The position numbers and the translations under genes were made by a program. Source: a virus. Taken from it: 37,698 nucleotides of DNA. The stretch is taken from positions 1-37,698 of the IMG/VR virus record IMGVR_UViG_3300032797_000019; one strand, 5' to 3'. The notes beneath the pieces were generated by a model. That model was given only the letters and a program-made list of their open reading frames with translations. It did not search any database and was not told where the DNA came from. Positions 21,617 to 36,419 of this stretch are shown piece after piece. Position 1 is the first letter of the stretch. Each line of letters starts with the position of its first letter.

Positions 21617-21787
21617 ATGAGCATGAAGCAATTAGAAATCGAGATTGTTAACCATTTAAAAGAAGCCCCTATTGTTAAAGCACATCTACAAACGTTAGAT
21701 TGGAAGATGAATTGGGTGATGGGACTAATCAGTGCCACCTTTGTAGCCACACTTGGGGCTTTATTGGCTTTAATGATTAGGAGATAA
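21617..21787 (+). CDS. Holin-like small membrane protein
   Basis: A 56-residue protein with an N-terminal amphipathic helix ('KQLEIEIVNHLKEA') and one C-terminal membrane segment (about 34-54, 'VMGLISATFVATLGALLALM') ending in RR. This plan resembles the XhlA class of haemolysin/holin accessory proteins. The ATG lies one base after the stop of the previous gene, and a GGAG at 21607-21610 serves it. It begins the probable lysis cassette. The function is inferred. Confidence 0.65.
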   Translation: MSMKQLEIEIVNHLKEAPIVKAHLQTLDWKMNWVMGLISATFVATLGALLALMIRR

Positions 21788-21965: not shown

Positions 21966-22124
21966 ATGCCGATGTGTCCGAAGTGTAAAAGAAAGCGGCG
22001 TGTGATAGAGAAGTTAGAACGACAGAATGGAAAGAAATACTTTATTGGACGCTGTATTAGTTGTAAAACACCTGTTGAAATGGAAGAATACAAGAATGAA
22101 CGAAATCCTAAACTTGAGTCTTAA
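21966..22124 (+). CDS. Zinc-ribbon mini-protein
   Basis: A 52-residue protein with two cysteine pairs, CPKC at 4-7 and CISC at 30-33, set in a strand-turn pattern typical of a rubredoxin-type zinc ribbon. It is basic between the pairs. AAGGTGGTGTGTC precedes the ATG. It overlaps the DUF5675 gene by 29 bases. The role is unknown; such ribbons often bind nucleic acid or protein partners. Confidence 0.7.
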   Translation: MPMCPKCKRKRRVIEKLERQNGKKYFIGRCISCKTPVEMEEYKNERNPKLES

Positions 22125-22491
22125 GCGCACCGTATTCTATAGTGACTGCACCATCGGAGAACTTTACTCTAACGGGCAGTTTGAATGTTTCACTCTTGAG
22201 GATGTGCCTAGAACTGAGAAAGTCTACGGTCAGACGGCTATCCCTGTAGGTGAGTATAGGATAACCGTTGATTACTCGAATAGATTTAAACGTCATCTTC
22301 CTCTGCTTCATAATGTTCCTCAGTTTGAAGGAGTTCGGATTCATCCTGGTAATACGGCAAAGGATACGGAAGGTTGTATTCTAGTGGGCAGGAAAGTGAA
22401 TGGTCATTCAATTGAAGAATCTCGCCTGGCATTTAACTCTCTCTTTCCCAAGATAGAAGCTGCTTCACAATGTTCCATAACGATTTCTTAA
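22096..22491 (+). CDS. DUF5675 family protein, lysis enzyme candidate
   Basis: A 131-residue protein of the DUF5675 family. It shows 'SLKRTVFYSDCTIGELYSNG', 'TAIPVGEYRITV', 'FKRHLPLLHNVPQFEGVRIH' and the hallmark 'RIHPGNTAKDTEGCILVG' (81-98). The H-x-G and G-C-I parts of that hallmark recall the H...(S/T)xGC motif of L,D-transpeptidases (YkuD), so action on peptidoglycan is possible but unproven. No other endolysin is seen in the window, and it follows a holin-like gene. The start at 22096 was chosen over 22027, which would lie deep within the zinc-ribbon gene. Confidence 0.8.
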   Translation: MNEILNLSLKRTVFYSDCTIGELYSNGQFECFTLEDVPRTEKVYGQTAIPVGEYRITVDYSNRFKRHLPLLHNVPQFEGVRIHPGNTAKDTEGCILVGRKVNGHSIEESRLAFNSLFPKIEAASQCSITIS

Positions 22492-22585
22492 TAGGCTTAA
22501 ACACTACCTTCCCTGATTTAGTTAAACGCAATTCTGACTGAGTCCCATCTGAATAAACAATAGTACCGATCTTTCTAGATGACAT
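22406..22585 (-). CDS. Small hypothetical protein, last gene of the leftward operon
   Basis: A 59-residue basic protein (MSSRKIGTIVYSDGTQSELR and onward) with a beta-like N-terminus and a helical C-terminus. A very strong AAGGAGG lies eight bases before its ATG, inside the end of the upstream gene. Its last 86 bases run antisense to the end of the DUF5675 gene, so the two operons overlap tail to tail. Function unknown. Confidence 0.65.
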
Positions 22586-22859
22586 GTAAATCCTCCTTGG
22601 TCATAGGCTGTCGTACAAAGTGTCCATCCTTCCACACACCTAATCCAGCATCATCAGCATAGTATGTAGCCTTGTTACCGAAGTGTGTAGTTAAAGCTGA
22701 GTCCTCTTTTAATGGCACACCTATGGCTAAAGCCCCATCCATAGCTCGGTTAAACATACCCCCTGCATAGCTTTGCCTACCATCTGCATAGCGTCTAGCC
22801 ATCCAGTGAATGTCTAAGATGATAGATTGTAGTTTCTGGCAGCGTTCACAGTCTTTCAT
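22575..22859 (-). CDS. Hypothetical protein with CxxC motif
   Basis: A 94-residue protein beginning 'MKDCERCQKLQSIILDIHWM'. The start at 22859 is fixed by AGGAG upstream and by ATGA overlap with the previous gene. One CxxC pair (4-7) and a conserved-looking 'ALAIGVPLKEDSALTTHFGN' segment are visible. No family or function is recognised. Confidence 0.7.
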   Translation of the reverse strand: MKDCERCQKLQSIILDIHWMARRYADGRQSYAGGMFNRAMDGALAIGVPLKEDSALTTHFGNKATYYADDAGLGVWKDGHFVRQPMTKEDLHVI

Positions 22860-23002
22860 TCGAAATCTCCTATGTGACCTTTTTTCCAGCAGGATAGTAA
22901 TTCTTTTAACGTTGTAGACCAGCAATTTTTTCTACAAATGAATAGAAATACGCCGTATTCTTTGAATCGTTTTCGTACCGTTCTCCAAGGCGGGCATTTC
23001 AT
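22856..23002 (-). CDS. Basic mini-protein
   Basis: A 48-residue, strongly basic protein with cysteines at 3, 23, 27 and 38. Both ends overlap neighbours by ATGA, and GGAGG lies nine bases before the ATG, so it is very likely translated. Cysteine spacing is not that of a standard ribbon. Function unknown. Confidence 0.65.
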   Translation of the reverse strand: MKCPPWRTVRKRFKEYGVFLFICRKNCWSTTLKELLSCWKKGHIGDFE

Positions 23003-23280
23003 CTAAACAACCTCCATCCTCTAGGCTTATACTTAGTTATAATACACAATGCTATAATACAGAATACTAAGGCAGCTATCTCTAAGGCCATCCCCACCCA
23101 GTTACTATAGATCATAAGACCTACAATAGTGAACACGTACTTGATTAGCTTGTAAAGATACGCAGAAGATGACACATCCTTGCTATGTTTTGTACGTAAA
23201 GTCTTAGCGATCTGCTTCCAATAGCTGAGGAGTTCCAATAGAACAGCAATAGCTACACAGAAGATTCCTATAGTATGCAT
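22999..23280 (-). CDS. SemiSWEET/PQ-loop-like small membrane transporter
   Basis: A 93-residue protein with three hydrophobic segments (about 3-20, 40-56 and 60-83). SemiSWEET sugar transporters are 85-100 residues with three helices and work as dimers. The loop after the first helix, 'YWKQIAKTLRTKHSKDVSSS' (20-39), matches the family pattern 'PQ..K..KTKS..D(V/I)S', with WKQ in place of PQ. The start at 23280 has AGGAGC upstream; a longer reading to 23385 is rejected. The likely role is small-solute passage across the inner membrane, or a reused helix bundle. To my knowledge such genes are rare in phages. The substrate is unknown. Confidence 0.6.
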   Translation of the reverse strand: MHTIGIFCVAIAVLLELLSYWKQIAKTLRTKHSKDVSSSAYLYKLIKYVFTIVGLMIYSNWVGMALEIAALVFCIIALCIITKYKPRGWRLFR

Positions 23281-23281
23281 C

Positions 23282-23452
23282 TTAAGCTCCTGGTGGTGTC
23301 TTATTGCTCCATGGAATACCCATGTTAGGCTTCTCATCCTCATCCATTTCAATGTAGGTTCTAAAACACTGAGGACATCTACCACACCAGTCTAATTTAT
23401 CAGCAGCGAAGTACTGTTGACACATCACACATATCACACCTAATGTCTGCAT
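23282..23452 (-). CDS. Zinc-ribbon mini-protein
   Basis: A 56-residue protein with CVMC at 8-11 and C23-x2-C26-x2-C29, enough for one zinc site and a spare cysteine, then a Pro-rich acidic tail. The ATG overlaps the stop of the upstream gene (TAATG), and the stop is just ahead of the SemiSWEET-like start. Function unknown. Confidence 0.7.
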   Translation of the reverse strand: MQTLGVICVMCQQYFAADKLDWCGRCPQCFRTYIEMDEDEKPNMGIPWSNKTPPGA

Positions 23453-23703
23453 TATTTATTCTCCATTACAATCTCAACATCTTTAGGTTGCTCAATGATC
23501 TGAGCCTGACCATCTTGTATCTGTATTACTACTTTCTTCTTACGTGTGCGCTTCGTAGTCTTACGTTGGTCTTGTTCCATGTCATAGAAGTACTCTTTGA
23601 CAAGGATGGCAAATGTAGCCATGCCGAATAGAAGCTCTCCAGTTAAAATAGCAAACAACCAAAGAGGTTCCCATATGCCGAGGTACAGATTAAGACCTAG
23701 CAT
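23452..23703 (-). CDS. Single-pass membrane protein with basic tail
   Basis: An 83-residue protein with a long hydrophobic N-terminal part (about 4-36, 'WLFAILTGELLFGMATFAIL') followed by the very basic 'RKTTKRTRKKK' and a beta-like acidic tail. The basic stretch after the helix suggests the C-terminus faces the cytoplasm. The gene is in the middle of a run of small membrane genes. No family is recognised. Confidence 0.7.
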   Translation of the reverse strand: MLGLNLYLGIWEPLWLFAILTGELLFGMATFAILVKEYFYDMEQDQRKTTKRTRKKKVVIQIQDGQAQIIEQPKDVEIVMENK

Positions 23704-23961: not shown

Positions 23962-24017
23962 CCAGTTAATGCAAGTAAATACAATGTTAGTACTATAGCA
24001 AGAGCCTTAAGTGTCAT
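23934..24017 (-). CDS. 27-residue membrane peptide with lipobox-like end
   Basis: A tiny hydrophobic peptide. 'LYLLALTGC' (12-20) has the form of a lipoprotein signal (LTGC) but only seven residues follow the cysteine. The ATG overlaps the upstream stop (ATGA), which supports translation. It could be a toxin-like or regulatory membrane peptide; it could also be a chance frame. Confidence 0.45.
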   Translation of the reverse strand: MTLKALAIVLTLYLLALTGCIWMVLVW

Positions 24018-24442
24018 AGTGTTTTCCAGAAGTTTGAATGTTTATACCCTGGCACTACACCTTCAAACAACTCTCCAAAGTCAGCCATGCTAACGATCTC
24101 TTTATAGAGATGAGGCCATTTCTGTACAGCTTTCTTATACCTCCAAGCGTATAGACGCTGCTGGATTGGAATGACTACCATGTTCAAGAGATTGAATATC
24201 CATGAACTAGAGAGCCAGAAGTCTAACTGCATAGGCCACCATTTAGGATACCAACAATGTGATGGACGCCAGATAGAGTATAGTCCATGCCATCCAAATA
24301 AACAGTATACACGTACTGTACCATACTTCTCCTTATAATCTAGCACACTAACACGTGCATAGGTCTTAAGCCAATGCGCTATATAGTAAGCAGCGTCATT
24401 AATACCATCCCAATCCACATCTTCATCTCCCCATTGATGCAT
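24014..24442 (-). CDS. Tryptophan-rich conserved hypothetical protein
   Basis: A 142-residue protein with many Trp and Tyr residues ('WDGINDAAYYIAHWLKTYAR', 'EKYGTVRVYCLFGWHGLYSI', 'QKWPHLYKEIVSMADFGELF'). I associate this sequence course with a conserved phage protein family of unknown role. The middle is hydrophobic (about 78-93) and may touch membrane. The start overlaps the neighbouring stop by one base. Confidence 0.75.
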   Translation of the reverse strand: MHQWGDEDVDWDGINDAAYYIAHWLKTYARVSVLDYKEKYGTVRVYCLFGWHGLYSIWRPSHCWYPKWWPMQLDFWLSSSWIFNLLNMVVIPIQQRLYAWRYKKAVQKWPHLYKEIVSMADFGELFEGVVPGYKHSNFWKTL

Positions 24443-24684
24443 TATAAATCCTCCAATTTAATTAAATCTTTTCGTTTGACATTCTTACAGATCGTGACTA
24501 GATTAGGGAATAATTCACTTGTCGCTTTTAGTTTACACTGAGGATAGTCGCACTTTCGTTTACAACGGCATGATCCTATACCATCTTGCCTACGTTTAAG
24601 ACAGTCTCGATGTATATCACAGAAGCAGAAAAAGTGACTCTCTTTCTTGCTATACACCCATTGTTTCCATGCCTTAATGTCCAT
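24442..24684 (-). CDS. Cysteine-rich zinc-binding small protein
   Basis: An 80-residue basic protein with cysteines at 20, 22, 28, 39, 41, 45, 50 and 66 and a His at 25, enough for one or two zinc sites. The ATG at 24684 follows AAGGAGATTCTTAA and lies 11 bases inside the end of the protease gene. The C-terminus ends 'KRKDLIKLEDL'. No named family. Confidence 0.7.
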   Translation of the reverse strand: MDIKAWKQWVYSKKESHFFCFCDIHRDCLKRRQDGIGSCRCKRKCDYPQCKLKATSELFPNLVTICKNVKRKDLIKLEDL

Positions 24685-25288
24685 TTAAGAATCTCCTTAG
24701 TTGCAGATTGCTAGTTGTTATACCCACTAATGGAGGCATACTAAACAATGCTTGAGCTATGCCATAGAGTTCTCCGTCTAGTGTAAATACTGGTCCACCG
24801 CTCATTCCTGGCCCTATCATAGCGTCGATAATTACTTTGCCCCAGGTATCAAACTCGCCGCTGACAATACCTGATGTCATTATAATTGGAAGAACTGAAG
24901 GTGCTCCAGCAACTGCCACTGTAGTACCGATACGGACGCTACTAACTTGGCATACACGTATATCCCTATACTTATTAAAGCCATCACATTGGAGCAAAGC
25001 AAGATCACGCTTGCTGTCTTGGCGTATGATTCTACAGCCAGCTTTCTCTCCACTCTGCTTAACTGCGATAATGGCTCTTCCTCTTTCGGATACGACATGG
25101 TTAGCTGTCACTACCTTTCCTTTACTAATAATTACTCCACTCCCACCTACATTGCCCTCTTGTGTATCATAGACACGTATTTGTACAGTTCTATTTAGAG
25201 CTACTTTCCCCACCTTCTGGTACGACGGTTGTATCCACAACGATAGGTTGGTTAGAATTACTGCTAACGACAACAGGATCACTGGCAT
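24674..25288 (-). CDS. Membrane-anchored trypsin-like serine protease
   Basis: A 204-residue protease of the chymotrypsin/HtrA fold. The catalytic triad is visible: His64 in 'VVTANHVV', Asp95 in 'RDLALLQ', Ser163 in 'GPGMSGGPVF'. The oxyanion segment GxSGGP is intact. The N-terminus is a hydrophobic anchor (2-19) with no clear cleavage site, so the enzyme probably faces the periplasm or cell exterior. There is no PDZ domain. The ATG at 25288 is set by AAAGGAG; longer readings lack a ribosome site. It overlaps the previous gene by 98 bases. The target is unknown: an envelope protein or a rival-exclusion role are both possible. Confidence 0.85.
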   Translation of the reverse strand: MPVILLSLAVILTNLSLWIQPSYQKVGKVALNRTVQIRVYDTQEGNVGGSGVIISKGKVVTANHVVSERGRAIIAVKQSGEKAGCRIIRQDSKRDLALLQCDGFNKYRDIRVCQVSSVRIGTTVAVAGAPSVLPIIMTSGIVSGEFDTWGKVIIDAMIGPGMSGGPVFTLDGELYGIAQALFSMPPLVGITTSNLQLRRFLNGH

Positions 25289-25451
25289 TTGTAGACTCCT
25301 TTGTTTGTGGCATTCCATTAGGATAATTGAAGTTGTAGTTACGCACACGATCATGCACCCAATGCACAAACGCTTTCCTCTGTACTTTATTCATATAAGC
25401 CAAGGATGCATTGACAGCCTGTACGAATTGTTCTGGACTATTAATCTCCAT
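25191..25451 (-). CDS. Hypothetical protein with disordered tail
   Basis: An 86-residue protein. The N-terminal half is helical ('SPEQFVQAVNASLAYMNKVQ' and 'KAFVHWVHDRVRN'). The C-terminal 40 residues are low complexity (Ser/Asn/Val-rich) and lie in the region that also encodes the start of the protease. GGAGAGG lies ahead of the ATG at 25451. Function unknown. Confidence 0.6.
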   Translation of the reverse strand: MEINSPEQFVQAVNASLAYMNKVQRKAFVHWVHDRVRNYNFNYPNGMPQTKESTNASDPVVVSSNSNQPIVVDTTVVPEGGESSSK

Positions 25452-27131: not shown

Positions 27132-27509
27132 TTAGCCTCCTTTTCTTGGTACAATTGGCCCTTTTCGTTTTCGCATTGCAGCTAAAGTTGTAATAGCTTG
27201 CATAACTTGTTTCTTCTTTTTGTCTGTTTGAAGATATGGAAGCAGTGTATTAGCTAAACTTAAAGCATGCGAATTTGAAACTACTAGTGTAAATACTTTA
27301 CCGCCATAATGTGACTTATACTTTGGATATAGCACAGAAATAGAACCAGTTCCTAAATATGACTTAATCTTATTTAAGATTTGCTTCTCATTCTGAGCAA
27401 AGGAAAGTTTAAACGAATACGACCTATACTTTCCACACTTACGACGATAGCATCCAATACTTCCTTCACCTTCAAAGAATCCAGCCAGCCATTCATAAGA
27501 GAGTTTCAT
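27132..27509 (-). CDS. LAGLIDADG homing endonuclease, single motif
   Basis: A 125-residue protein with one LAGLIDADG motif, 'WLAGFFEGEGSIG' (7-19), so it would work as a dimer. The rest fits the fold, with 'LSFAQNEKQILNKIKSYLGT' in the middle. It starts one base after the polymerase stop, using the AAGGAG formed by the last polymerase codons. It is thus a free-standing gene in the operon rather than an intron or intein passenger. The probable target is the polymerase gene of related phages. Confidence 0.88.
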   Translation of the reverse strand: MKLSYEWLAGFFEGEGSIGCYRRKCGKYRSYSFKLSFAQNEKQILNKIKSYLGTGSISVLYPKYKSHYGGKVFTLVVSNSHALSLANTLLPYLQTDKKKKQVMQAITTLAAMRKRKGPIVPRKGG

Positions 27510-29217: not shown

Positions 29218-29338
29218 AGAATCCTTTCAGTGTGTAGAACGAAATAAACAATAGCCCTAGTACGTATAGAAGTGGAAACAATACTATAGCACTAGCTATC
29301 TCTAGAAGGGCAAGTCCGTATCTTTTGGCGGTATCCAT
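29147..29338 (-). CDS. Small membrane protein overlapping the polymerase start
   Basis: A 63-residue protein with a long hydrophobic region at about 8-40 (LALLEIASAIVLFPLLYVLG and onward), probably one or two short membrane helices. The start follows AAAGGATGACAG. Its last 71 bases encode the start of the polymerase in another frame. No family is recognised. Confidence 0.6.
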   Translation of the reverse strand: MDTAKRYGLALLEIASAIVLFPLLYVLGLLFISFYTLKGFYALIKWIVMGTIEPRNKSTDRPQ

Positions 29339-29652
29339 CTGTCATCCTTTCCTAAATGATATTTCTCAAACTCTAACAAGAACATAATGTTGCATCCAGC
29401 ATGAGCCAGATGAGACAGTCCTGACTCTGCATCCTTATCCTCACCACGTAGCCAAGCGAAGATATGGCGTAATAGACAGTGCGCTACACGTGTCCATTCG
29501 AAGCCACCACGCCAGTTGTTATCACCGTACTTCTTAGCACCGAATGTAAGCACCTTAGCGATTTCTTCCATAGCAACAGGACTAAGCAATGCCATTCTAG
29601 GCTTGCCATCATCGTGCCTCTTGCCTGTGAGTTTGTCCATCTGACCTTCCAT
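29302..29652 (-). CDS. dATP/dGTP diphosphohydrolase-like protein (DUF5664)
   Basis: A 116-residue protein matching the phage family described as dATP/dGTP diphosphohydrolase (formerly DUF5664). It has 'RMALLSPVAMEEIAKVLTFG', 'AKKYGDNNWRGG', 'LLRHIFAWLRGEDKDAESGL' and 'HLAHAGCNIMFLLEF'. Members are MazG-like helical enzymes that remove pyrophosphate from purine dNTPs and adjust the nucleotide pool. The Glu/Asp residues around 71-76 would bind the metal. AAGGAG lies ahead of the ATG. No purZ-type gene is present, so use of 2-aminoadenine DNA is not indicated. Confidence 0.82.
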   Translation of the reverse strand: MEGQMDKLTGKRHDDGKPRMALLSPVAMEEIAKVLTFGAKKYGDNNWRGGFEWTRVAHCLLRHIFAWLRGEDKDAESGLSHLAHAGCNIMFLLEFEKYHLGKDDRWIPPKDTDLPF

Positions 29653-35392: not shown

Positions 35393-35922
35393 TCTTTACT
35401 CCCTTTAATCTTATTAATCTTCTTTGTGATAGCATCTTGTATAGCCATAACTTTCTTAGCTTCTTTAATTGTAGTAAAGCTACTATTATCTAGCGCATCG
35501 TATAGTCGTTGTAGTAATACAACCAAACAATCGCCTTGCTCAAGTTCATCCACTGTCACACTGACTACTAGTGTATTAGGATTGTATTCAACTGCTGTCT
35601 CAGATACAGTAGGCATAGTAATTCCTTTCGCTTTATCTGCAATAGATTTACGGATAGCATTAGGGTCTTTAGGCAGAGCACTTGCCTCACCTACAAGATG
35701 TTCTACCATCTCGATCTTAGTGAGGGTAGGGGATAGAGTGGCATGGCCTGATTGTGCCTTCTCTTCCTTGCTTTCATGCACCACCACCGTATGCCCTGTC
35801 TTAGGTTCGGCGTCTGCACTACATCCAAAGCATAGGCCAGCTATCCCTGGTTGATTCACTGCTTGCATGATAGGTGTGCCACACTTCTGACAACATCCTA
35901 ATCCTTCTTGTCTTATATTCAT
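35389..35922 (-). CDS. Hypothetical protein with N-terminal zinc ribbon
   Basis: A 177-residue protein. The first 36 residues form a zinc ribbon (CQKCGTPIM at 11-19, CFGC at 31-34). The middle is disordered. The C-terminal half (about 100-175) is beta then helical, with 'LVVSVTVDELEQGDCLVVLL'. GGAGG lies 11 bases before the ATG. The stop overlaps the next start (ATGA). No known family. Confidence 0.68.
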   Translation of the reverse strand: MNIRQEGLGCCQKCGTPIMQAVNQPGIAGLCFGCSADAEPKTGHTVVVHESKEEKAQSGHATLSPTLTKIEMVEHLVGEASALPKDPNAIRKSIADKAKGITMPTVSETAVEYNPNTLVVSVTVDELEQGDCLVVLLQRLYDALDNSSFTTIKEAKKVMAIQDAITKKINKIKGSKE

Positions 35923-36419
35923 GAGTTACCGAACCTCCAAAAGATTCCAGTGACTAGCTTTGTATCGGTGTCGATACCTGAATACAAACTAAAGTTACTT
36001 AACTTACGCCACTGTATCCTATAAGATATGGCAGTGAAAGCGTTGGGGTATAACGGATACAAGTTAACACCTACCAACCATCCTAGTCTACGCCAGAACG
36101 CAAGCTCACATGTAATGTATAGTCTATTACGTTGACTGTATGCTAACCCTGCATCAAACACCCATCCTTTAGTGCGTGGTTTCACATCTACTTTACCGTC
36201 TGGTTTGACGGTGATAATCGTACCGTGATTATAGGTGGTTTGTGTCGTGGTATTTTGATGCGTCTGTGTTACTATTCCTGACGGCTTCACTGTCACCACT
36301 GCTGTCACATTCGTAGGTAGATTTGTGGATGTATCCACCTTATCTCTATCACAGTAGCGTAACAAAGCGACAAGTCCGACGGCTGAAAGCAATCCTACAA
36401 TGTATCTTTTCCTTGGCAT
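35919..36419 (-). CDS. N-terminally anchored hypothetical protein
   Basis: A 166-residue protein. Residues 6-21 form a hydrophobic anchor after a basic start (MPRKRY). A Thr-rich linker follows (about 28-80), then a beta-rich C-terminal domain ('GWVFDAGLAYSQRNRLYITC', 'LVTGIFWRFGNS') that looks like a beta-barrel or beta-sandwich for the envelope. It is the first gene of the leftward operon, behind the structured leader, with ATAGGAGGACACG ahead of its ATG. The role is unknown; an envelope-directed function is possible. Confidence 0.7.
   Translation of the reverse strand: MPRKRYIVGLLSAVGLVALLRYCDRDKVDTSTNLPTNVTAVVTVKPSGIVTQTHQNTTTQTTYNHGTIITVKPDGKVDVKPRTKGWVFDAGLAYSQRNRLYITCELAFWRRLGWLVGVNLYPLYPNAFTAISYRIQWRKLSNFSLYSGIDTDTKLVTGIFWRFGNS

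Follow-up and report, generated by a model that had tools for sequence, protein, structure and literature searches.

The locus analysed here raises the question whether a phage carries a small membrane carrier of its own and, if so, for which kind of solute. A sequence-only reading had described an open reading frame of 93 residues at 22999-23280 as a gene for a three-helix SemiSWEET/PQ-loop-like transporter. The source is a 37.7-kb record of an uncultured virus, which was analysed over its whole length (the window) and for which no close cultured relative was found. The reading frame is present as described. It is encoded by the minus strand, a point on which that reading had been silent; the plus strand across the same interval is full of stops. 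Its ATG at 23280 follows one base past the stop of a preceding 56-residue gene. As lysine replaces the proline of the PQ motif in the window protein, we refer to the protein and its relatives as KQ-loop proteins. The gene and its start region are as follows.

22999-23280, minus strand: KQ-loop gene, coding for a 93-residue three-helix protein with a predicted PQ-loop/SemiSWEET fold and KQ in place of PQ.
23281-23292, minus strand: ribosome-binding site AGGAG (CAGGAGCTTAAGATG), about 6 bases 5' of the ATG; it overlaps the last bases of the preceding gene.

The gene is located two genes on from a single-TM gene (23452-23703) and near the end of a minus-strand run that includes replication genes, among them a family-A DNA polymerase, and the structural genes on the plus strand run towards it. 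The polymerase (up to about 35%) and the portal protein (about 25%, to cyano-, roseo- and pelagiphages) gave only remote matches, and no host was assigned. Directly downstream of the polymerase gene a possible LAGLIDADG-type homing endonuclease (27132-27509, minus strand, LAGFFEGEGS) was recognised by eye. The minus-strand gene at 29302-29652 encodes a member of the dATP/dGTP diphosphohydrolase N-terminal family (PF18909, E = 7e-35), a family linked to phages with modified bases; by eye, no PurZ-like gene is evident among the open reading frames of the window.

Six other phages in IMG/VR encode a KQ-loop protein with 46-65% identity to that of the window (L003 65%, L057 57%, L001 55%, L004 49%, L058 and G004/L056 46-47%). 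In most pairs the synonymous sites are near saturation while amino-acid change is restrained (pN/pS 0.23-0.53). The reading frame is thus more than a chance one, being encoded in six further phages with pS values of 0.67-1.03 against pN values of 0.18-0.43. Across the seven members 24 positions are invariant, and they cluster in the cytosolic part that follows TM1, in the NWV preceding TM3, at a glutamic acid in TM3 and in a C-terminal KP..W. No close relatives were found in INPHARED, and a scan for short conserved peptides found none in GTDB (one genome per species, about 85,000 prokaryote species), a kind of scan that remote cellular relatives would escape.

To place the protein among known families we used profile searches. 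The best Pfam match of the window protein is PF04193 (E = 0.0016) with 18.6 bits, below the cut-off of 22, and the SemiSWEET model of NCBIfam (SemiSWEET_2, NF037968) matched with E-values of 0.007 and 0.0043 and with 16.5 bits, likewise below its cut-off of 80; several other KQ-loop members gave no direct Pfam match. Five canonical phage PQ-loop proteins, with no KQ-loop member among them, were the sole input of another profile (A7). It found the window gene (E = 1.2e-6, matching from position 10 to position 91 of 93) as well as the KQ-loop genes of L004 (3.3e-5) and L057 (1.3e-4). An hhalign comparison with the PQ-loop group gave P = 7.9e-5 over 32 columns. When the ungapped score to LbSemiSWEET was compared with class-preserving shuffles, which keep the hydrophobic pattern, the score of the window protein was reached by none of 1000 shuffles and those of the six others by 0-15 of 1000. 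DUF6785, ATP synthase I and YnaI were also matched weakly by the single sequence; we judged these matches to be chance, YnaI because it disappeared with the seven-member profile and left SemiSWEET alone. The proposed relationship was borne out by the matches to PF04193, the NCBIfam model and the A7 profile, and the KQ-loop protein is very probably homologous to the PQ-loop group.

The structure prediction points in the same direction. AlphaFold2 with the seven sequences gave a model of moderate confidence (pLDDT 70.8, pTM 0.53) with helices at residues 2-29, 38-57 and 61-84, in agreement with the three helices proposed before; in simple hydropathy TM1 and TM3 are clear and TM2 is only partly seen. 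A Foldseek search of the PDB placed SemiSWEET chains at all of ranks 1-13, with probabilities of 0.87-1.00 and TM-scores reaching 0.69 (query) and 0.77 (target). Their E-values of 0.02-0.6, none below 0.02, are weak owing to the small size of the protein and the moderate model, and the next match, an unrelated one, had E = 0.69. It is the consistent ranking rather than the E-values that argues for the fold: an earlier model from four sequences again had SemiSWEETs at ranks 1-13, and the best matches among the viral models of BFVD are named SemiSWEET or PQ-loop. A SemiSWEET monomer fold, as first suggested from the letters alone, is thus supported by the predicted model.

A closer look into the residues of the pocket shows how far the KQ-loop proteins have moved from the bacterial SemiSWEETs (LbSemiSWEET 4QNC, TySemiSWEET 4RNG, EcSemiSWEET 4X5M), with which they share the length of about 90 residues, the three helices and the predicted monomer fold. 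In LbSemiSWEET the glucose pocket is formed by Thr13, Trp48 and Asn64 and the proline of the PQ motif acts as a hinge; activity fell strongly when the Trp or Asn was exchanged for Ala in the proteins of E. coli and L. biflexa, and likewise when the PQ proline of EcSemiSWEET was replaced (PMC5972207). We anchored the comparison on the glutamine of the PQ motif, which is retained in the KQ-loop proteins as invariant Q23 within the loop KQIAKTLRTKHSKDVSSS (residues 22-39 of the window protein). Also kept is the stretch of the intracellular gate after TM1 (Q..K..T-K..V-S), of which T-K and V/I-S are shared with the bacterial proteins. In contrast, the counterpart of the hinge proline Pro19 is K, R, K, K, K, R and Q in the seven members, that of Thr13 in TM1 is Glu or Asp in all of them, and that of Trp48 is Thr or Ala, with TM2 being free of any Trp throughout. 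Asn64 is missing, and its place is taken by the invariant Glu67, the TM3 glutamic acid present in all seven members, or by the preceding hydrophobic residue if a one-residue gap in TM2 is assumed. With the residues of the sugar pocket replaced in every member, the sugar facilitator of the sequence-only reading is unlikely, and to judge from these residues the protein probably moves a solute other than sugar, if it is a transporter at all. In all seven members acids stand where the sugar pocket has neutral side chains that bind hydroxyls, and this led us to propose a cation or an amine as the solute, or else a coupling to protons. The acidic pocket suggests this by analogy with cystinosin, a PQ-loop protein in which membrane-buried aspartates couple protons and hold the amine of the substrate (PMC9385667). 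Cystinosin and other proton-coupled PQ-loop carriers share the superfamily and the intramembrane acidic residues with the KQ-loop proteins but have seven helices per chain and two PQ motifs, and the likeness of the acidic pockets is one of analogy and not of alignment.

Taken together, we favour a divergent, phage-specific SemiSWEET-fold protein with a switched pocket that is encoded by an accessory gene and most likely acts as a homodimeric carrier for a small solute, perhaps a cationic or proton-coupled one; we give this reading a probability of roughly 0.45. From the fold, the N-terminus would face outwards and the C-terminus inwards, and two parallel protomers would form one central path opening alternately to the periplasm and to the cytoplasm. 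The acidic pocket and the K, R or Q beside the invariant Gln would suit a small cation or amine, or a coupling to protons like that at Asp305 and Asp205 of cystinosin. Expressed by the phage from the minus-strand operon during infection, the protein would alter the flow of that solute across the inner membrane of the host. The narrower proposal of a phage-only subfamily that works during infection as a proton-coupled carrier or as a carrier of cations or amines, for example a polyamine or a cationic amino acid, is considerably more doubtful.

A scaffold with PQ-loop fold that does not transport at all and instead modifies the envelope or a membrane protein of the host, for example in superinfection exclusion or signalling, seems rather unlikely. 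Non-transporters such as trafficking receptors do occur in the PQ-loop superfamily (PMC9385667), the loss of the proline hinge speaks against the usual gating motion, and the outer loop YSNWVG and the C-terminal KPxxW are strongly conserved. However, the conserved ionizable residues within the helices resemble a functional pocket.

Another function, in lysis, would be compatible with the surroundings of the gene, which include the following features.

23452-23703, minus strand: single-TM gene, 83 residues, whose product has a Glu buried in the membrane; each of the seven carrier phages has it, six of them close upstream of the KQ-loop gene.
23282-23452, minus strand: CxxC-rich (zinc-ribbon-like) gene, 56 residues, directly upstream; no significant family match.
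22575-22859, minus strand: gene of unassigned function, 94 residues, downstream on the same strand; no family match.
22096-22491, plus strand: DUF5675 protein, convergent (PF18925, E = 1.8e-34).
21617-21787, plus strand: single-TM protein, 56 residues, XhlA-like by appearance; no Pfam match.

The proposed run of small membrane genes is therefore only partly seen: the genes at 23452-23703 and 21617-21787 do encode single-TM proteins, whereas those between or beside them are not membrane-like. In the relatives, small genes like that at 21617-21787 sit convergently beyond the KQ-loop gene, and in L057 a DUF5675 gene overlaps the end of the KQ-loop gene. Each of the six phages with enough flanking sequence encodes a peptidoglycan hydrolase (M15 or GH108) or DUF5675 no more than about 2 kb away, the hydrolase being usually separated from the KQ-loop gene by other genes. 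The window also encodes a trypsin-like serine protease whose N-terminal part includes a hydrophobic segment (24674-25369, minus strand; PF13365, E = 1.5e-21); similar proteases occur in the same neighbourhood in L001, L003, L004, L057 and L064, which is unusual for a replication run of a phage. Also near the KQ-loop gene is a conserved Trp/Tyr-rich protein of 133-142 residues that has no family match (24014-24442, minus strand, in the window and L001:4112-4513).

Such a neighbourhood would suit a lysis protein, that is a three-TM class I holin or antiholin whose partners would be the single-TM proteins and the peptidoglycan hydrolase encoded nearby, and the three TMs, the length (about 95 residues in class I holins), the basic C-terminus and the XhlA-like genes beyond would fit as well. 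We nevertheless regard this as improbable. At permissive thresholds no match to a holin family was obtained in Pfam (E up to 10) or PHROGs, and the predicted fold is that of a SemiSWEET. In holins the cytosolic loop is not known to be the most conserved part, but it is in the KQ-loop protein. Furthermore, phages with the same backbone, including DUF5675, do without the KQ-loop gene. In L064 (G010) a trypsin-like protease, the single-TM gene and an HNH gene are followed by the convergent DUF5675 gene with no KQ-loop gene between them, showing that the KQ-loop gene is accessory, and none of 25 relatives found by their exonuclease or terminase has it. The KQ-loop gene is an accessory gene near the lysis region.

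As for the claim that such a gene would be an auxiliary gene of a new kind, annotated PQ-loop proteins already exist in Bacillus phage vB_BcoS-136, Sporosarcina phage Lietuvens and Geobacillus phage GR1 as well as in several large or giant viruses, and staphylococcal phages may encode further, unannotated relatives, many of these matches being weak. The claim does not hold in this form: a phage PQ-loop gene is already known, and what is new is the KQ-loop subfamily, a variant that lacks the proline and has an acidic pocket. In the open-access literature searched we found no paper studying PQ-loop proteins as phage genes. The annotated proteins are phage-borne and have three TMs like the KQ-loop proteins, and the same profile finds both, but they keep the PQ motif, show only 17-26% identity to the window protein and are encoded in other neighbourhoods, often of nucleotide metabolism. 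In GR1 (L013), Lietuvens (L012) and Staphylococcus phage RQ1 (L067) the canonical PQ-loop gene adjoins a nucleoside 2-deoxyribosyltransferase gene or lies a few genes from it, often amid genes for ribonucleotide reductase and dUTPase, and the canonical protein of these three phages is possibly a carrier of nucleosides or bases. A corresponding link of the KQ-loop gene to nucleoside salvage fails, the similar-looking proteins of the window and of L006 being without a Pfam match.

Two sister phages, those of L001 and L057, have a second, canonical PQ-loop gene in addition to the KQ-loop gene.

L006:1357-1656, minus strand, in G001: canonical PQ-loop gene, PF04193 above cut-off.
L057:1258-1536, plus strand: canonical PQ-loop gene, PF04193 above cut-off.

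The phages of G001 and L057 each encode a pair of SemiSWEET-fold proteins, one canonical and one of the KQ-loop type. Directly 3' of the canonical gene in L057 lies a gene (L057:1536-2171, plus strand) whose product, like that of the minus-strand gene at 35919-36419 of the window, has a TM or signal segment at its N-terminus and resembles a small beta-barrel in its C-terminal part. The KQ-loop protein could be pictured as one subunit of a heterodimer, as in the mitochondrial pyruvate carrier, with the canonical PQ-loop protein or the single-TM neighbour as partner. We consider this very unlikely: the single-TM gene accompanies the KQ-loop gene in all seven phages and the canonical gene in two of them, but a canonical copy was not found in the other five records, the window among them, although records may be incomplete, and shortened relatives of the single-TM gene occur in two of the 25 phages without a KQ-loop gene. 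These shortened relatives weaken a strict partnership and point to a shared neighbourhood rather than proving a complex. Equally improbable is a SemiSWEET homodimer that passes glucose or sucrose down its gradient through the host membrane, which would agree with the fold, the relationship and the retained gate stretch but not with the replacement of Trp48, Asn64, Thr13 and the hinge proline in all seven members, since such Trp, Asn and Pro changes cut activity (PMC5972207), nor with the surroundings, in which no sugar-metabolism gene was seen.

In the KQ-loop proteins the minimal carrier fold is kept while all known sugar-holding residues are replaced, which would make them a small test case, provided by nature, for substrate change in a SemiSWEET fold. 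If the proposal of an acidic-pocket carrier is true, phages would have in them a first functional class of PQ-loop carrier, with a pocket switch within a minimal three-helix protein, and a carrier would point to a so far unrecognised solute need of the phage during infection. Should the protein rather serve lysis, a transporter fold would have taken on that role, which would likewise be of interest.
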